DNA from: Candidatus Enterococcus courvalinii | Lineage (GTDB): Bacteria; Bacillota; Bacilli; Lactobacillales; Enterococcaceae | Assembly: GCF_017315945.1 (NCBI RefSeq) | Contig: NZ_JAFLWI010000002.1 | Location: 62,001 to 126,000, forward strand | Length of the DNA: 64,000 nucleotides | Reading direction: 5' to 3' | Part shown: one piece after another, positions 35,695 through 46,225 of the stretch | Position numbering within the stretch: the stretch's first letter is position 1 | Layout: every line of letters starts with the position of its first letter | Position numbers and translations under genes: made by a program | Notes under the pieces: model-generated | Seen by the model: only the letters and a program-made list of their open reading frames with translations | Told to the model about the DNA's origin: nothing | Databases searched by the model: none

Positions 35695-35724
35695 ATTACC
35701 CAAATGGGAAAGGAGATTATTTAT

Positions 35725-39751: not shown

Positions 39752-40087
39752 ATGGAAATCAATGTGGAACATATTTTAGATTGTCTCGATCGTTATGGCA
39801 AAGGAGAACTAACCAAAGAGCAAGTCAACGAGGATTTGACGATAGACGAAAAAGTATTTCTTATTATGAATCAGGATTTTTTTGAAACCAATGAAGAAGA
39901 TTTTGACGTACTCAAATGGTTGGATGAGGAAGAGTCCTTCTTTATGGTTGTCGAAGTAAATGAAAATTTATGTCGCCAGGCAGAATCTGTCTTGGAAGAA
40001 ATCGGTGTAGAGATGCCGGATGCCATTGAAAGTTTTTTAACACAATTGGTTGAAACGAAACAACTTCCCGTGTCAGTAAATGACTAG
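39752..40087 (+). CDS. Very acidic small protein of unknown function
   Basis: 111 residues with 30 Asp/Glu and only 7 Lys/Arg, no signal peptide, no membrane segment and no motif I recognise. ATG 39752 with AGGTGA is chosen; an in-frame GTG lies at 39743. It is tightly packed after orf22 in the transfer operon. The strong negative charge recalls DNA mimics such as ArdA, but this is only an inference. Standard Tn916 has no counterpart that I recall at this spot. Confidence 0.65.
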   Translation: MEINVEHILDCLDRYGKGELTKEQVNEDLTIDEKVFLIMNQDFFETNEEDFDVLKWLDEEESFFMVVEVNENLCRQAESVLEEIGVEMPDAIESFLTQLVETKQLPVSVND

Positions 40088-40100
40088 CATAACTTTTTGA

Positions 40101-40132
40101 AATTGCCCAATAAAATCCTATTGGGCAATTTT
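40101..40132 (+). terminator. Perfect palindrome / terminator-like hairpin before orf21
   Basis: A perfect 12-bp inverted repeat (40101-40112 with 40119-40130) with a 6-nt loop, followed by TTCC. The T tract is short, so it may act as attenuator, RNA processing site or protein site. Confidence 0.6.
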
Positions 40133-40156
40133 CCATTGGAGGTGGAAACCATCAAA

Positions 40157-41500
40157 ATGTACAAAGGGCATCGCATACGCGCAGGAGATCGGCACTTGGT
40201 TTATCACTTTGTTCTTGGCTGGCTAATCGCTTTATTCATCGGTTGGATGAGCGTCTTTTATTTTCATGAGTTTAGACAATTTGAGATTTTTAAGCTATCA
40301 CTTTCCACTATTGAAATTGTTTTGTCCATGAAAGATTTAATCTGCTTACTAGGAAGTCTCGCTCTTTCAGGAAGCATGATGTTACTTTATATTCATTTTT
40401 TTCCTGATTATTGGCGAAGTTTATGGCATCGACAAAAGCTAGCCCGAATGATTCTAGAAAACCATTGGTATGAAGTAAAGCAAACTCAAAGTGAAGGCTT
40501 TTTCAAAGATTTGAATAGTAGTCGAACCAGAGAGACTATCAGTTACTTCCCCAAAATTTATTATCGAATGAAGGATGGCTTACTGTCTATTCGCGTTCAA
40601 ATTTCACTGGGAAAATATCAAGATCAACTCTTGAAATTGGAAAAGAAGTTAGAAAGTGGGTTGTATTGTGAGTTAGTAGAAAAAGAACTCAAAGACTCTT
40701 ATGTGGAATACACCTTGTTATACGATATGATTGCCAATCGAATTGGAATTGAAGAAGTAGTGGCAGAAAATGGGGCGTTGCGATTGATGAAAAATCAAGT
40801 ATGGGCGTATGATTCCTTACCTCATATGTTAATTGCTGGCGGTACAGGTGGAGGGAAGACCTATTTCTTACTCACCATTATCGAAGCACTATTGAAGTCA
40901 GATGCAGAATTGTTTATCCTCGATCCCAAAAATGCCGACCTAGCCGATTTAGGTACAGTAATGCCTCACGTATACTCCCAAAAAGAGGAAATCTCTACTT
41001 GTGTGGAAGATTTCTATGAACGCATGATGGCTCGTAGTAAGGAAATGAAAGAAATGCCCGACTACAAAACAGGAGAGAATTATGCCTATCTTGGACTTCC
41101 GCCAACCTTTTTAATCTTTGATGAATACGTGGCTTATATGGAAATGTTAACGACTAAGGAGAGTGCGGTAATTTTGAATAAGCTCAAGCAAATTGTGATG
41201 CTAGGTCGTCAGTCTGGCTTCTTTCTGATTCTGGCTTGTCAAAGACCGGATGCAAAATATTTAGGAGATGGGATTCGCGATCAATTTAACTTTCGCGTGG
41301 CTTTGGGTCGCATGAGTGAGCTCGGGTATTCCATGATGTTTGGCGAGGTCGATAAAAATTTCTTTATGAAACGCATCAAAGGTCGAGGTTATGTGGATAC
41401 AGGAGGAAGTGTAATTAGTGAGTTTTATACGCCACTTGTACCAAAAGGATATGATTTCTTGGAATCCATCAAACAAGTAGCGCAATCAAAAGAAAAATGA
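40157..41500 (+). CDS. FtsK/SpoIIIE-type coupling ATPase (Tn916 Orf21, TcpA-like)
   Basis: 447 residues. Two N-terminal membrane helices (about 15-35 and 60-85), then an FtsK-like motor domain with Walker A AGGTGGGKTYF near residue 228, LFILDPKNADLADLG, Walker B FLIFDEYVAYMEM and CQRPDAKYLGDGIRDQFNFRVALGRMSE. It matches my memory of Tn916 Orf21 over its full length. It is the coupling protein that brings the MobT-DNA complex to the mating channel. I chose ATG 40157 (MYKGHRIRAG) by homology; the frame runs up to TTG 40097 across the palindrome. Confidence 0.93.
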   Translation: MYKGHRIRAGDRHLVYHFVLGWLIALFIGWMSVFYFHEFRQFEIFKLSLSTIEIVLSMKDLICLLGSLALSGSMMLLYIHFFPDYWRSLWHRQKLARMILENHWYEVKQTQSEGFFKDLNSSRTRETISYFPKIYYRMKDGLLSIRVQISLGKYQDQLLKLEKKLESGLYCELVEKELKDSYVEYTLLYDMIANRIGIEEVVAENGALRLMKNQVWAYDSLPHMLIAGGTGGGKTYFLLTIIEALLKSDAELFILDPKNADLADLGTVMPHVYSQKEEISTCVEDFYERMMARSKEMKEMPDYKTGENYAYLGLPPTFLIFDEYVAYMEMLTTKESAVILNKLKQIVMLGRQSGFFLILACQRPDAKYLGDGIRDQFNFRVALGRMSELGYSMMFGEVDKNFFMKRIKGRGYVDTGGSVISEFYTPLVPKGYDFLESIKQVAQSKEK

Positions 41501-41585
41501 CAGCTACAGAGAAATCTAGTCTTCTAGGGTATCAGGCTAAAAGTATGATAAACTAAGGATAAAAGCGTCAGGAGGTGCAATAAAA

Positions 41586-42260
41586 ATGACAGAGAATTAT
41601 TCTTTACAGTATGCTAAAGAGAACAAAAAAGTATTAATTTCTTCTATTACTGATGGGAAAGAAAAAGAGGAAGAAAAGACTGCCATTTTTATGGCTGGAA
41701 GTCCTGGTGCTGGAAAGACTGAGGCTGCACAAACTTTGACGGCATTGAATGGTAATCTTTGTGTAATCGATGCTGATAAATTTCGTGAACTATTTCCGGG
41801 CTATGCTGGGAATAATTCAGATGAATTTCAACGAGGATCAGCACTTTTGGTAGATGCTGCTCTCGATTTAGTTCTTAAAAAGGGTTATAGTTTTATTCTT
41901 GATGGCACGTTTGCGACTTCTAAGGTAAATCAAAATATTGAACGGGCACTCAAAAAGAATTATAATGTGCTTGTTTATTATGTATATCAAGATCCATTTA
42001 TTGCTTGGGACTTTACTAAAAAACGAGAAGAAGTTGAAGGCCGTTTTGTTCCTAAAGAACGTTTTATCAATGCTTTTTTTCAATCGAGAAAAAATTTGAT
42101 GCAGGTGAAAAAGCAATTTCAAGAGAAAGTAACCATCAATATCTTAGTGAAGGACTTTCAAAATACGATTTCTGATTTTCTAATGGACATTGATAATGTT
42201 GAACTAGCATTACCAATCAGTTATACGAAAGAAAGATTGGAGGAAGAACTACATGACTGA
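41586..42260 (+). CDS. Zeta toxin family kinase
   Basis: 224 residues. P-loop FMAGSPGAGKTEAAQTL (about residues 36-52), NLCVIDADKFRELFPGY (the substrate-binding Asp region), FILDGTFA and a C-terminal arginine-rich lid segment. This is the zeta/PezT kinase fold, whose toxins phosphorylate UDP-N-acetylglucosamine and block peptidoglycan synthesis. Its own AGGAGGTG precedes ATG 41586. No epsilon- or PezA-like gene precedes it; a 55-aa ORF overlaps its end. It could be a toxin or a non-toxic relative; elements like this often use it for maintenance. Confidence 0.85.
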   Translation: MTENYSLQYAKENKKVLISSITDGKEKEEEKTAIFMAGSPGAGKTEAAQTLTALNGNLCVIDADKFRELFPGYAGNNSDEFQRGSALLVDAALDLVLKKGYSFILDGTFATSKVNQNIERALKKNYNVLVYYVYQDPFIAWDFTKKREEVEGRFVPKERFINAFFQSRKNLMQVKKQFQEKVTINILVKDFQNTISDFLMDIDNVELALPISYTKERLEEELHD

Positions 42261-42420
42261 GAAAGAAAAAGTTGAAGAAATTATGGAGAAGTATAACCGT
42301 AACTTTTCTACACTACAAAAGAATGCCTCTGCGAAAGAGCTGAAGACAGTCTTTAAATTTGTAGCAGATGAATCCAATCGAAAACAACGAGAATTGATTG
42401 GTTTGGATAAAGAAAAATAA
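42253..42420 (+). CDS. 55-aa protein overlapping the zeta kinase gene, possible partner
   Basis: The ORF starts at ATG 42253, overlaps the zeta stop by 8 bp in another frame, and has GGAGGAAGA about 8 bp upstream. The product is helical and charged (MTEKEKVEEIMEKYNRNF at the N-terminus, RKQRELIGLDKEK at the C-terminus). A terminator follows directly, so kinase and small protein form a closed two-gene unit. Its place suggests an antitoxin or modulator, but the order toxin-then-partner is the reverse of epsilon-zeta and PezAT. I do not recognise the family. Confidence 0.6.
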   Translation: MTEKEKVEEIMEKYNRNFSTLQKNASAKELKTVFKFVADESNRKQRELIGLDKEK

Positions 42421-42442
42421 ATTTGAAATTGAAATATTTTTA

Positions 42443-42476
42443 AGAGCCAAGGGCAAAAATGTTCTTGGCTTTTTTC
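42443..42476 (+). terminator. Intrinsic terminator of the zeta unit
   Basis: AGCCAAG (42445-42451) pairs with CTTGGCT (42464-42470), then TTTTTT. Confidence 0.85.
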
Positions 42477-42498
42477 TTTGCGATGAATGAGGTGATTT

Positions 42499-43641
42499 AT
42501 GACATTTTTAGATTTATTCGCCGGGATTGGTGGCTTTCGCTTAGGTATGGAACAAGCGGGTCACCAGTGTATCGGCTTTTGTGAAATTGATGAATTTGCT
42601 CGGCGGAGTTATAAGGCAATCCATGATACAAGGAAGGAGGTGGAAATGCATGACATCACAAGTGTATCAGACGAGTTTGTTCAATCCCTCGGACCAGTGG
42701 ACATCCTTTGCGGTGGATTTCCGTGCCAAGCTTTTTCAATTGCGGGAAAGCGGCAAGGATTTTCCGATACTCGAGGTACTTTATTCTTTGAAATCGCTCG
42801 GTTCGCCACTCTTCTCCAACCTAAGTTTTTATTCCTTGAGAACGTCCGGGGATTGCTCAATCACGAAGGAGGGGCTACGTTCGAGACGATCCTCCGAACG
42901 CTGGATGGATTGGGGTATGATGTGGAATGGCAGGTGCTTAACTCAAAGGCCTACGTTCCCCAAAGCCGCGAGCGGGTCTTCCTTATCGGACATTCTCGAG
43001 ACGCATGTACCGAACAAGTATTTCCTATCATTGGATCGTCTCCAACATCTGATCAAAACATCAGAAACTTGGTAAATATCAATCCTTCCAATCGAGGAAT
43101 GGGTGGCCAAGTCTATGGTTCAGATGGGGTTGCCCTAACCTTAACCGGTGATGAAGGAATCAAAATCGCATTGCCGGTAAAGGATGGAATTTCTGTAGCC
43201 GGTATGTTATCAGGAAATTTTGAACAAGGCAATCGTGTTTATGAGGTAACTGGAACTGCCCCCACTTTGTCAACGAAACAAGGGGGAACGAAAATCATGA
43301 TTCGGAAAAATGAAACAGAATATCAAGAGGTGAAGCCAGGGGACAGTGTGAACTTGGCTTTTCCTAATTCCACAAGTCGTCGAGGCCGTTTGGGAAAACA
43401 AAGTGTGCATACCTTACTAACAGGAGACCAACAGGCAGTCGTCACAGATCAGTACCAGATTCGGAAGCTAACACCTAGAGAATGCTGGCGACTTCAAGGA
43501 TTTCCCGATTGGGCCTTTGACCGGGCCTCTCAAGTCAATTCAGATAATCAGTTGTATAAACAGGCCGGAAACTCTGTAACAGTTCCGGTCATTTTTGATA
43601 TTGCTAGAAGATTAAAGGAGGTAAAAGCACATGATTTATGA
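42499..43641 (+). CDS. DNA (cytosine-5-)-methyltransferase
   Basis: 380 residues, all C5-methyltransferase motifs in order: I LFAGIGGFRLG, II-like CEIDEFARRSY, IV with catalytic Cys GGFPCQAFSIAGKRQGF, VI ENVRGLL, VIII QSRERVFLIG, a target-recognition region (about 200-310), IX KLTPRECWRLQGFPDWAF, X QAGNSVTVPVI. It appears complete and active. No restriction nuclease is next to it, so it is a solitary enzyme that probably protects the element from host restriction. Start ATG 42499 has GAGGTGA. Codons 51-192 overlap a second reading frame that also codes for protein (42650-43075); local base use there is richer in G+C than around it. Confidence 0.95.
   Translation: MTFLDLFAGIGGFRLGMEQAGHQCIGFCEIDEFARRSYKAIHDTRKEVEMHDITSVSDEFVQSLGPVDILCGGFPCQAFSIAGKRQGFSDTRGTLFFEIARFATLLQPKFLFLENVRGLLNHEGGATFETILRTLDGLGYDVEWQVLNSKAYVPQSRERVFLIGHSRDACTEQVFPIIGSSPTSDQNIRNLVNINPSNRGMGGQVYGSDGVALTLTGDEGIKIALPVKDGISVAGMLSGNFEQGNRVYEVTGTAPTLSTKQGGTKIMIRKNETEYQEVKPGDSVNLAFPNSTSRRGRLGKQSVHTLLTGDQQAVVTDQYQIRKLTPRECWRLQGFPDWAFDRASQVNSDNQLYKQAGNSVTVPVIFDIARRLKEVKAHDL
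42650..43075 (+). CDS. C5-methyltransferase-associated protein encoded inside the methyltransferase gene (+1 frame)
   Basis: 141-residue ORF wholly inside the methyltransferase gene, shifted +1. AGGAAGGAGGTGG ends 7 bp before ATG 42650, an ideal internal ribosome binding site. The protein has the features I associate with small proteins encoded next to C5 methyltransferases in phages and elements: YQTSLFNPSDQW, FRAKLFQLRESGKDF, FYSLRTSGDC, WMDWGMMWNGRCLT and the ending SSLSDILETHVPNKYFLS. In those systems it is usually a separate gene. Its function is unknown to me; partnership with the methyltransferase is inferred. The frame also stays open upstream to 42581. Confidence 0.75.
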   Translation: MTSQVYQTSLFNPSDQWTSFAVDFRAKLFQLRESGKDFPILEVLYSLKSLGSPLFSNLSFYSLRTSGDCSITKEGLRSRRSSERWMDWGMMWNGRCLTQRPTFPKAASGSSLSDILETHVPNKYFLSLDRLQHLIKTSETW

Positions 43642-43921
43642 TGAGTTGATTGGAGAAATCTACTGGGTGATTGGCAAGATTCAGTCAGATCCGGAACTGG
43701 AAGAAGAACTGTACCGGCTCAATTTTGATATTCGAAAAAATGGGGTGAAGGTCCCTGGTGATTCATATGTAATGGACGAGGAAACCGATGCTCGAATTGA
43801 GTTGAATCAGGTTATCAGTGAATTCGAACGGATTGCGGACCTTGCCAAAGAACCGGATATCCGCCAATACTTGTTTGAGATAAAAGCAGAATTGGAAATT
43901 GAGGGTATTACTGCGGAGTAA
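43631..43921 (+). CDS. Acidic 96-aa protein after the methyltransferase
   Basis: 96 residues. AAAGGAGG lies within the 3' end of the methyltransferase gene, whose stop it overlaps by 11 bp. The product is acidic and mostly helical (MIYDELIGEIYWVIGKIQ, RQYLFEIKAELEIEGI), with no motif I know. Overlap and direction place it in one transcription unit with the methyltransferase. It ends just before the oriT region. Confidence 0.7.
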   Translation: MIYDELIGEIYWVIGKIQSDPELEEELYRLNFDIRKNGVKVPGDSYVMDEETDARIELNQVISEFERIADLAKEPDIRQYLFEIKAELEIEGITAE

Positions 43922-43949
43922 CAACCAGATAAACCACTGATAGGCGCTG

Positions 43950-44157
43950 ACCGCGGGGGATTTGCGAAGCAGGAATCCTCCGTGGTGCTGTGCCTGTTCA
44001 TGGACGGCGCCAGCCGGCCATGATGTCTCACCCCCCGTATCTAACAGGGGGGTACAAAAACACAAAAAATAAGCAAGTAACCATTAAGAATTACTGGTGT
44101 AGCAAGGATATTAAGTAATTTGTATAGGTGTTAACTCATTTGAAAAAGTTAACACCT
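43950..44157. other. Origin of transfer (oriT) region
   Basis: The core is ACCCCCC (44030-44036), a 10-nt loop containing CTAACA, and GGGGGGT (44047-44053). From memory this is the conserved nic-site hairpin shared by Tn916 and ICEBs1. Two more structures flank it: a G+C-rich imperfect stem (43950-43964 with 43972-43986), and a perfect 11-bp inverted repeat AGGTGTTAACT/AGTTAACACCT (44126-44136 with 44147-44157) just before the relaxase gene. Location between orf21 and orf20 is as in Tn916. The outer stems may bind relaxase or auxiliary proteins. Confidence 0.85.
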
Positions 44158-44176
44158 TGAATTTGGAGGTGAGAAC

Positions 44177-45361
44177 TTGGCACAACGGAATTTAGATTAT
44201 CGGCTATTAAAAGACCGACGCAACGAATATGGTATTTCGCAAAATAAATTGGCTACCGCTTGCGGGCTTAGTCGTCCCTATTTAAACCAGATAGAAAACG
44301 GTGGCGTAACACCATCCGCAAAGACCATGAGAAAAATTTTTGACCAATTGGAAAGTTTCAATCCCGATTTGCCTTTGACATTACTGTTTGACTATGTAAG
44401 GATTCGTTTCCCCACAACGGATGCACGAAAAATTATTCAAGAAATTCTCCATTTGAAATTTGAGTATATGCTTCATGAAGATTACGCCTTTTACTCTTAT
44501 CAGGAACAATATGTCATGGGAGATATTGTGGTGATGTTGTCTCATGAAGAAGATAAAGGTGTTCTTTTAGAATTAAAAGGGCGTGGTTGTCGACAGTTTG
44601 AAACTTTTTTACTTGCTCAAAAGCGTAGCTGGTACGATTTTTTCGAAGATTGTCTAAAATCCGGTGGCGTGATGAAACGCTTAGACTTAGCAATCAATGA
44701 TCGAGTGGGGCTATTGGATATTCCTGATTTAACGAAAAAGTGTCAGAAAGAAGAATGTATCTCCTTGTTTCGTACCTTCAAAAGTTATCGTTCCGGGGAA
44801 CTGTTGAAAGCCGATGAAAAGGATGGCATGGGCAATACCTTATATATCGGCAGTCTCAAAAGTGAGGTTTATTTTTGTTTGTACGAAAAAGATTATGAAC
44901 AATATATCAAGTTAGGGATTCCATTAGACCAAACTGAAACGAAAAATCGCTTTGAGATTCGACTGAAAAATGACCGCGCTTATCATGCGATTCAAGATTT
45001 GTTAAAAGGTCGTAGTATTGAAAGTACCACATTTTCCATTATCAATCGGTATTTGCGATTTGCGGATAAAGTAGATGGAAAACGGCGAACCAACTGGCCC
45101 TTGAATGAACAATGGGGTCGTTTTATTGGACGGAATCGGAAAGAGATTCAACTCACTTCTGAACCCAAACCGTATACCATTGAACGAACCTTGAATTGGC
45201 TAGGCAGACAAGTTGCCCCTACGTGGAAAATGGCTAAGGAGTTGGATCGTTTGAATCAGACAGCCTATATCCAGGATATGGTACAGAATGCACGCTTATC
45301 AGACCGGCACAAAAAGATTTTGGAACAACAAAGTATGGCAATTGAAAACTTGATTGTATGA
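44177..45361 (+). CDS. mobT: MobT-type relaxase (Tn916 Orf20, Rep_trans family)
   Basis: 394 residues. N-terminal XRE helix-turn-helix (residues 14-70; ISQNKLATACGLSRPYLNQIENG), then the rolling-circle Rep_trans domain (VMKRLDLAINDRVGLLDI, LYIGSLKSEVYFCLYEKDYEQ, RFEIRLKNDRAYHAIQDLL). It matches Tn916 Orf20 in length and layout. It nicks oriT and starts rolling-circle replication and transfer. The TTG start at 44177 has GGAGGTG 6 bp upstream. The oriT lies immediately 5', so it may regulate its own expression by binding there. Confidence 0.94.
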   Translation: MAQRNLDYRLLKDRRNEYGISQNKLATACGLSRPYLNQIENGGVTPSAKTMRKIFDQLESFNPDLPLTLLFDYVRIRFPTTDARKIIQEILHLKFEYMLHEDYAFYSYQEQYVMGDIVVMLSHEEDKGVLLELKGRGCRQFETFLLAQKRSWYDFFEDCLKSGGVMKRLDLAINDRVGLLDIPDLTKKCQKEECISLFRTFKSYRSGELLKADEKDGMGNTLYIGSLKSEVYFCLYEKDYEQYIKLGIPLDQTETKNRFEIRLKNDRAYHAIQDLLKGRSIESTTFSIINRYLRFADKVDGKRRTNWPLNEQWGRFIGRNRKEIQLTSEPKPYTIERTLNWLGRQVAPTWKMAKELDRLNQTAYIQDMVQNARLSDRHKKILEQQSMAIENLIV

Positions 45362-45375
45362 AAAGAGGAATATTG

Positions 45376-45483
45376 ATGGAAATTGTAAAAGATATTTTAT
45401 TGGGATTTAGTGGCAGTCTGCTTGGTGTTACGATGCATTCAAGTGCAGAAGCAGACCGAGCAATGGAAAAGAAAGGAAAGTGA
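45376..45483 (+). CDS. 35-aa membrane peptide (DUF3789-like)
   Basis: ATG 45376 follows AGAGGAA. The product has a short hydrophobic stretch (ILLGFSGSLLGVTM) then a charged tail (SSAEADRAMEKKGK). Tiny proteins of this form (DUF3789) sit at the same place in many Tn916-like elements. The ORF is 15 bp after mobT and 5 bp before the TcpD-like gene. Function unknown. Confidence 0.6.
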   Translation: MEIVKDILLGFSGSLLGVTMHSSAEADRAMEKKGK

Positions 45484-45487
45484 CGAG

Positions 45488-45709
45488 ATGAATTTCGGAC
45501 AAAATTTGTATCAATGGTTTTTAACCAATGCCCAATCCTTAGTCTTACTGGCAATTGTGGTCATTGGGTTATTTTTAGGATTTAAGCGGGAGTTTTCTAA
45601 ATTGATTGGCTTCTTGGTGATTGCCTTGATTGCGGTCGGTCTGGTCTTTAATGCTTCTGGTGTGAAGGATGTCTTACTCAATTTGTTTAACCGAATTGTC
45701 GGTGCGTAA
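45488..45709 (+). CDS. TcpD-like membrane protein (Tn916 Orf19 position)
   Basis: 73 residues with two hydrophobic helices (about 17-35 and 40-58), ending GVKDVLLNLFNRIVGA. The size, two-helix layout and place after the relaxase gene fit Orf19/TcpD proteins of Tn916 and pCW3, inner-membrane parts of the transfer machine. ATG 45488 is chosen (GAAAGGAAAG upstream); the longer frame from 45410 overlaps the 35-aa gene. Confidence 0.75.
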   Translation: MNFGQNLYQWFLTNAQSLVLLAIVVIGLFLGFKREFSKLIGFLVIALIAVGLVFNASGVKDVLLNLFNRIVGA

Positions 45710-45721
45710 GGGGGATTCACG

Positions 45722-46225
45722 ATGGAACAGATGCGTGTTTATATTGCGAACCTTGGAAAATACAATGAAGGTGAGTTGGTGGGGGCATGGTTTACCCCAC
45801 CTGTCGATTTTGATGAAGTGAAAGAACGGATTGGATTAAATGACGAATACGAAGAGTACGCGATTCATGATTATGAGTTGCCTTTTGAGATTGATGAGTA
45901 TACGCCAATTGAAGAAATTAATCGTTTGTGTGGCTTAGCGGAGGAACTAGAAGGAACGCCAATTGGTGAAGTCGCTTCTGAGATTCAGCATGCTTTCTTC
46001 AATTCTTTTGAGGAAATGGTAGAGCATGTGGATGATATTGTCTATTATCCAGATTGCGATGATATGAGTGATGTAGCATATTTCTTGATTGTAGAAAATG
46101 GTGAATTTGGAGAAGTACCAGAACACTTGAAGACGTATATTGATTTTGATGCGTGTGGTAGAGACTTGGAGATTGGGGGAAATTATTTGGTAACGAGTCG
46201 AGGTGTTTTTGAGTATCCATATTAA
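45722..46225 (+). CDS. ardA: Antirestriction protein ArdA (Tn916 Orf18)
   Basis: 167 residues, very acidic. ArdA features: MRVYIANLGKYNEGELVGAWFTPPVDFDEV at the start, EYEEYAIHDYELPFEI in the middle, and YFLIVENGEFGEVPEHLKTYIDFDACGRDL at the end. ArdA mimics bent B-DNA and blocks type I restriction enzymes (shown for Orf18 of Tn916). It has a GGGGG-containing site before ATG 45722. A terminator follows. Confidence 0.95.
   Translation: MEQMRVYIANLGKYNEGELVGAWFTPPVDFDEVKERIGLNDEYEEYAIHDYELPFEIDEYTPIEEINRLCGLAEELEGTPIGEVASEIQHAFFNSFEEMVEHVDDIVYYPDCDDMSDVAYFLIVENGEFGEVPEHLKTYIDFDACGRDLEIGGNYLVTSRGVFEYPY

Follow-up and report, generated by a model that had tools for sequence, protein, structure and literature searches.

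The C5 cytosine DNA methyltransferase gene at positions 42499 to 43641 of the window (the whole 64,000-nucleotide stretch of Candidatus Enterococcus courvalinii DNA that was analysed) and a second open reading frame inside it almost certainly constitute a true overlapping, dual-coding gene pair. The second frame is open beyond chance in homologues that were not chosen for it. Sequence comparisons suggest that the methyltransferase gene of a mobile element would, in addition to the enzyme, encode a small +1-frame protein that is made from its own start site and has long been kept by selection.

The methyltransferase gene, on the forward strand, is intact and encodes 380 amino acids that match TIGR00675 (E 9.8e-85) and positions 1-323 of the 324 in PF00145 (E 6.5e-82). 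Its own frame contains LTPRECWRLQGFPDW and QAGNSVTVPV, read by eye, which we take to be motifs IX and X. With the frame intact and PF00145 matched end to end, the initial annotation of this DNA was right that the enzyme keeps its motifs over the overlap. The nested gene (42650 to 43075, forward strand, +1 frame) lies entirely within the methyltransferase frame, where the initial annotation had located it, and extends for 141 codons from an ATG at 42650 to a TAA at 43073-43075, giving a product of 141 amino acids and a predicted 16.3 kDa. AGGAGG, the predicted ribosome-binding site of the nested gene, lies 9 nt before the ATG (42635 to 42640, forward strand); the site had been recognized earlier, but the 7-bp spacing given for it needs correction, as 6 nt separate the end of the purine block AGGAAGGAGGTGG from the ATG. 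The overlap was also correctly described as richer in G+C, if only modestly so (48.5%, compared to 44.4% and 44.2% in the rest of the methyltransferase gene and 40.0% in region 40000-46000). When the codons of the window gene were shuffled synonymously, the 141 nested codons stayed open in 17 of 20000 shuffles (mean, 4.66 stops), so that the open reading frame is beyond chance even before homologues are counted.

The nested protein belongs to PHROG 16143, matching positions 1-135 of its 139 (E 5.6e-39). The label of this family, "DNA methyltransferase," names the enzyme, whereas the members found here are the product of the other reading frame. The protein search that had been proposed for the 141-amino-acid product returned homologues in phages and plasmids; tblastn matched 208 of 50,697 phage records and 65 of 72,556 plasmid records, with a top identity of 57% in both. 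A core common to the groups of homologues described below (SLSDILETHVPNKYFLS in the window) is encoded at 42980 to 43030 on the forward strand, where frame 0 specifies part of motif VIII and what follows it.

The genes between positions 35704 and 53167 of the window, downstream of a LepA-like gene, read by eye like an integrative conjugative element, with a Rep_trans initiator (profile match) and, by eye, an LPXTG-type surface protein and FtsK-, VirB4-, and NlpC-like proteins. A zeta-toxin-like kinase gene (41586-42260; PF06414, E 1e-42) and a 55-codon open reading frame directly upstream of the methyltransferase (42253-42420) are perhaps a toxin-antitoxin pair in unusual order. A 96-amino-acid open reading frame with no family match above the cutoff overlaps the methyltransferase end (43631-43921).

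Selection on the second frame in relatives of the window gene

Group 1, the relatives of the window gene, was sampled as 80 viral contigs fetched by the methyltransferase protein, so that the choice of contigs did not depend on the second frame. The +1 frame over methyltransferase codons 50-188 was examined in 26 non-redundant rows that were <90% alike; L010 and L011 (enzyme open reading frame of <900 nt) and L075 and L084 (misplaced start) were left out of this set. Expected numbers of stops were obtained by codon shuffling that preserved each protein sequence and its codon use. Frequent +1 stops in relatives of the methyltransferase, named in the initial annotation as a sign against dual coding, did not appear: 0 were observed in the 26 homologues versus 162.5 expected. 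In the control frames of the same rows, stops numbered 343 versus 344.3 expected (+2 frame) and 347 versus 277.0 expected (+1 frame downstream).

Close copies of the window gene, with enzymes ≥85% identical, gave 20 near full-length matches, 12 of them distinct. Among these 12, methyltransferase third positions were variable at 27/50 sites upstream, 32/141 in the overlap, and 136/189 downstream, and variability in the overlap was significantly lower than that downstream (Fisher P = 2.7e-19) or upstream (P = 7e-5). Variable first positions did not differ between the overlap (29/141) and the downstream region (42/188; P = 0.79). Since each third position in the enzyme codons serves as a second position in the nested gene, constraint on third positions is the pattern that dual coding predicts. 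This constraint is confined to the overlap, and enzyme amino acid identity is high across most of the same region, which indicates selection on both proteins. The proposal that both frames of a dual-coding stretch are under selection is thus sustained by stop avoidance and third-position constraint in homologues, and the start site is conserved as well (see below).

Ordinary C5 methyltransferases served as a negative control. A C5 methyltransferase match was present in 47 of 149 genomes of the phylum, and an open nested match in only 3 (G000, G480, and G483). Among 30 C5 methyltransferase loci of the phylum, 22 could be parsed, and 2 of these, the window gene and one other, were nested. The 20 ordinary enzymes had no nested open reading frame, with 1 to 13 stops each and 145 +1 stops in sum, compared to 149.9 expected. 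The enzyme of Klebsiella phage Roth27, which is 45% identical to that of the window, likewise has no nested open reading frame. It was the one non-nested case, next to three nested ones, among 5 records read from 13 that were fetched out of 16 evenly spaced enzyme-matching phage records, which are too few to give a rate. The motif VIII call in BABullseye, another of the 5, looks wrong.

Three methyltransferase subfamilies with a nested frame

Within the same order, PHROG 16143 matched 81 places in 63 of 395 genomes. Stops were found inside 9 of the 81 places; 8 of the 9 were weak matches (E of 1e-7 or worse), and one, at G144:C33, was a strong match (E 1.5e-42) carrying one TAA. Twenty of the 81 places, chosen among the weaker matches and free of internal stops, were fetched. 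Eighteen were nested, one was a decayed copy of both frames (L136), and one (L135; E 1.4e-4) had no methyltransferase and was taken as a chance match rather than a member of the family. These weaker places led to other methyltransferase subfamilies, and the nested arrangement proved to be common to three of them (groups 1, 2, and 3), which the initial annotation had not mentioned.

Enzymes of group 2 begin like GSLFSGSGGF. In most of them, the nested frame starts about 330-450 nt downstream of the beginning of the open frame; its product terminates with a near-invariant tail, LSQIL..GVPEKYYLSQKAC.GILRRA..RGK.LP..L..AL. All 33 group 2 members examined against PHROG 16143 matched it (33/33; best E, 1.5e-7). 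Group 3 comprises enzymes of Vibrio, Pseudomonas, and Pectobacterium phages and Dmt of phage P1, and has a tail similar to that of group 2; a similar nested tail is present in mycobacteriophage Beem. In phage P1 (NC_005856; L218:2456-2929), the dmt gene contains a nested +1 open reading frame of 157 codons that is not annotated; GGAG precedes its ATG, and its product has the family tail RYFLSSKACAGILRR.

For groups 2 and 3, the methyltransferase was the query and the starting enzymes already had the nested frame, so that these groups are not a random sample of C5 methyltransferases. Over the same range of codons, observed versus expected +1 stops were 0 versus 55.1 in group 1 (12 rows), 0 versus 66.6 in group 2 (32 rows), and 1 versus 52.5 in group 3 (18 rows). 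When all parsed loci were considered (78, 77, and 79 of 80 for groups 1, 2, and 3), the numbers of rows with a +1 stop were 0/78, 0/77, and 1/79, respectively. The group 2 alignment, used as a query against 84,980 species genomes, yielded at least 553 relatives; judged by their titles, the top 80 records were mostly from Clostridia and relatives, with a few from Enterococcus, Veillonella, and Bacteroidales-labelled bins. Phage records matched by the window enzyme, the window nested protein, and the group 2 nested protein numbered 1661, 208, and 127, respectively, in unmerged lists with differing E limits.

The nested proteins of the three groups resemble one another beyond what the enzyme sequence imposes. 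The group 2 nested profile scored a median of 64.5 bits on group 3 +1 frames, compared to a shuffled mean of 9.3 bits, and none of 1800 shuffles did as well. The more distant comparisons gave 25.2 versus 3.2 bits for the group 2 profile on group 1 (9/1200 shuffles as good), 25.2 versus 1.2 bits for the group 1 profile on group 2 (2/3200), and 19.1 versus -1.7 bits for the group 1 profile on group 3 (2/1800). Control enzymes gave no excess with the nested profiles, as 758/2000 and 1226/2000 shuffles were as good.

Synonymous-codon identity was compared in bins of 20 codons, with sparse terminal bins excluded. In group 1, it was 0.65-0.79 within the nested frame (0.62 in the border bin) and 0.41-0.52 outside. 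The corresponding values were 0.56-0.82 and 0.37-0.47 in group 2, with the exception of one inner bin (-20 to -1) at an ordinary 0.46, and 0.79-0.95 and 0.53-0.69 in group 3. In the bins 20-59 codons after motif VIII, enzyme identity drops (0.39 and 0.52 in group 1; 0.66 and 0.43 in group 2). Together with the near-invariant nested tail of group 2, this drop suggests that in the C-terminal part of the overlap it is the nested protein, rather than the enzyme, that seems to set the sequence.

These comparisons bear on two explanations that do without a second protein. One is that methyltransferase sequence and codon bias leave the +1 frame open and conserved as a mere by-product. Weak echoes of the +1 profile do occur in ordinary methyltransferases, since 4 of the 7 +1-frame matches in the 149 phylum genomes hold 6 to 10 stops each, and a single control enzyme scored 25.6 bits with profile A1. 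However, the shuffle tests left the protein sequence and codon use of the enzyme unchanged, neither the control frames nor the control enzymes showed comparable stop avoidance, and close copies were constrained at third positions. The by-product explanation, which we regard as scarcely tenable, is already refuted by the shuffle, control, and third-position tests unless all of them share an unseen bias. The other explanation attributes the synonymous constraint to an RNA or DNA element, such as a structure, a packaging signal, or a binding site. Such elements likewise suppress synonymous change, but the constraint seen here covers some 100 to 140 codons, stops are avoided in one frame only, and amino acids are conserved between distant subfamilies, all of which make this explanation very improbable.

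Translation start and origin of the nested gene

The position of the start codon is highly conserved in group 1, with an ATG exactly at +151 of the methyltransferase in 79 of 80 loci. A Shine-Dalgarno-like site combined with an ATG in the start zone was clearly enriched in group 2 (30/32 rows; 5.3 expected) and mildly so in group 1 (9/12; 5.0 expected). Group 3 showed no excess (3/18; 3.0 expected); many of its rows have in common the context GTGGA, 8 nt, ATGCA, which is absent from others. Rows without an ATG at the places tried numbered 2 in group 2, 14 (of 79) in group 3, and 1 in group 1.

The +1 frame could alternatively be reached by ribosomal frameshifting, yielding a methyltransferase with another C terminus rather than a separate protein. 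In the window, the 105 nt that precede the ATG are open in the +1 frame, and the lack of a clear Shine-Dalgarno site in group 3 would also be consistent with this. However, among rows with an ATG, an in-frame stop lies ≤30 nt before it in 75/75 rows of group 2, 63/65 of group 3, and 19/77 of group 1, and the product of an upstream frameshift would be cut short there. In our reading, the group 2 stop is partly forced by the Met-Arg codons of the enzyme. These upstream stops favor internal initiation over frameshifting, as does the Shine-Dalgarno enrichment in group 2, and frameshifting appears improbable. The nested ATG is thus the probable translation start.

The initial annotation had ascribed words of the nested protein (SLSDIL, KYFLS, and others) to separate genes next to C5 methyltransferases, and had proposed that the dual-coding stretch in the window arose by a merger of two such genes. 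The words are indeed those of the family, but resolved copies lie inside methyltransferase genes or are derived from them. No independent stand-alone nested gene was found among the weak matches in the order, 80 viral contigs, 80 genome loci, and 149 genomes of the phylum, which represent the top or a selected portion of longer lists. Among the 80 top-ranking viral relatives out of 169, the test showed nesting in 75; the other 5 were cut at a contig end, with the second frame open over 487-552 codons. Among the best 80 of the at least 553 genome relatives, 79 passed the nesting test; the enzyme frame was continuous over the whole nested frame in 76 and fell short of spanning it in 3, and the remaining locus, missed by the motif pattern, had a 621-codon frame over the nested one. 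In mycobacteriophage Thibault, a nested piece, gp104, is annotated separately; it is flanked by two methylase pieces and neighbors an HNH gene, which suggests derivation from a methyltransferase gene that bore the nested frame. With no independent copy in these samples, the merger is unsupported and hardly credible, and an ancient overprinted gene fits better.

Several phage loci have rearranged methyltransferase genes. The methylase genes of Thibault (L516:710-2511) and Schatzie (L219:782-2305) are in pieces around an HNH gene; Thibault gp104 corresponds to the nested C-terminal tail, and the Schatzie record is annotated "unable to determine intron boundaries." In mycobacteriophages AvatarAhPeg, Dorothy, and BABullseye (L508, L509, and L515), the methylase is annotated as two partly overlapping open reading frames, as if the enzyme were split into two polypeptides after its N-terminal half. 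A 521-amino-acid "cytosine specific methyltransferase" of phage ctDgT26 (A0A8S5LZA8) is 44% identical to the group 2 nested protein over 126 columns, as if the nested frame were joined to the enzyme frame.

In a quick tree of 74 rows, nested-bearing enzymes fell into two clades among ordinary ones, with 3 label changes, one of which was the single group 3 row with a stop. Constraining all 54 nested-bearing enzymes to group together gave a likelihood that was higher by 18.75 log units (p-AU, 0.706), although the alignment included the overlap columns and may favor such grouping. The higher likelihood allows a single origin and does not prove it; in our reading, the constrained tree and the common tail point to one ancient origin. 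The prospects appear about even that the nested gene arose by a single overprinting in an ancestral mobile-element C5 methyltransferase and remained locked inside it while the pair, inherited together, spread through phages, integrative elements, and plasmids of Bacillota, Pseudomonadota, and Actinomycetota, with the nested protein dictating the DNA of the C-terminal part. If so, the failure to find it as an independent gene would mean that the nested protein works only with, or is timed by, its carrier enzyme.

Possible function and relation to known systems

Two possibilities were considered for what the nested protein does. The favored one, held tentatively and drawn from genomic context, is that it is an accessory partner of its host enzyme, possibly as a binding partner or as a modulator of methyltransferase activity or stability. 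The reasons for this reading are that no independent stand-alone copy was seen and that the hosts are mobile elements. In Lactococcus phage 4268 (L504:1201-1800), the enzyme is cut to 185 amino acids just after motif VIII and the nested frame is whole, which argues against strict dependence on a complete enzyme. Lactococcus phage CHPC1175 matches the phage 4268 methyltransferase locus in two pieces, with extra DNA between them.

The second possibility, ranked behind the first and rather unlikely, is that the nested protein is a stowaway with its own job, most likely counter-defence (anti-restriction, perhaps against enzymes that cut methylated DNA), carried along because both proteins protect incoming mobile DNA. 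The hosts (phages, plasmids, and, by our reading of the window, an integrative element) agree with such a role, as does the whole nested frame beside the truncated enzyme of phage 4268. So does the finding that none of the 12 distinct close copies has a nested stop, versus 3 with a stop in the enzyme frame (codons 118, 269, and 378). However, mobile stand-alone copies, which one would expect of a portable anti-defence gene, were not seen in the samples examined. Nor did families of known proteins lend support, as the window protein had no Pfam or NCBIfam match at E values up to 1, for group 2 proteins no match fell below E 0.007, and sequence searches of solved structures returned no relative of the nested protein.

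Structure prediction added little to either possibility. AlphaFold2 models of the window and group 2 nested proteins were poor (mean pLDDT, 50.8 and 54.4), and their confident parts were short C-terminal helices, the best being a helix pair in the group 2 protein. Foldseek searches with the group 2 model gave no match in the PDB at E 0.001 or better; among viral models, they returned the 521-amino-acid ctDgT26 entry and an 81-amino-acid Thibault protein. The pI of the nested protein is 9.3 in the window, with medians of 5.4 in group 1 and 9.7 in group 2, and because it varies between groups, charge was rejected as a hint of DNA binding.

Some known gene pairs have a similar arrangement. In phage lambda, the small gene Rz1 lies wholly inside Rz in the +1 frame and both products are made; the pair described here is nested in the same way, but Rz and Rz1 are lysis genes and the likeness is one of arrangement only. 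Among C5 methyltransferases, the gene for the EcoHK31I beta polypeptide overlaps the alpha gene in another frame. The closest annotated case is Streptococcus phage MM1, in which ORF13 and ORF14 are recorded as "C5 methyltransferase alpha subunit" and "beta subunit" (DQ113772; AJ302074 gives the same open reading frames other names). ORF14 lies wholly inside ORF13 and begins 151 nt into the methyltransferase, the same offset as in the window, and its product is 53% identical to the window nested protein. The designation of ORF14 as a beta subunit comes from the record annotation. Two methyltransferase features at the locus were found only in three MM1 records, among 60 listed of the 208 matching phage records.

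M.AquI and M.EcoHK31I are described in passages of PMC3404938, and the latter also in a passage of PMC3439449, as C5 methyltransferases of two polypeptides, which likens them to the window pair. According to the same part of PMC3404938, the small subunit carries motif IX (EcoHK31I) or motifs IX-X (AquI), which the large one lacks. The window pair differs from that layout (PMC3404938, same passages) in that LTPRECWRLQGFPDW belongs to the large frame, and no such motif was seen by eye in the nested protein. A hidden open reading frame in another frame of a phage methylase gene is also found in the ShiLan element, described in a section of PMC11855218 as a homing insertion with an out-of-frame HNH gene. 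That insertion, as the section of PMC11855218 presents it, interrupts its gene, whereas the window nested frame overlaps the conserved core of an enzyme that reads through (PF00145 1-323), and the nested protein has no nuclease match. Nesting as such is common in viruses, as 30% of 13,189 overlaps lie totally within another gene by the figures excerpted from PMC7017920. The excerpts drawn from PMC6456624 and PMC12707154 make no mention of a nested methyltransferase gene, and no description of it was found among the papers listed from the open-licence literature, although one may exist elsewhere.

The conservation of the nested gene extends over three methyltransferase subfamilies and phages of hosts from several phyla, even though it is unannotated in dmt of the model phage P1 and mislabelled with the name of the wrong frame's product in a public family library. 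To our knowledge, long same-strand dual-coding genes have rarely been proven in double-stranded DNA phages and bacteria, and in this family it can be tested how a gene that originated within another persists without ever leaving it. A second protein is probably produced from many phage methyltransferase genes, and a change made in such a methyltransferase gene may therefore hit both products.
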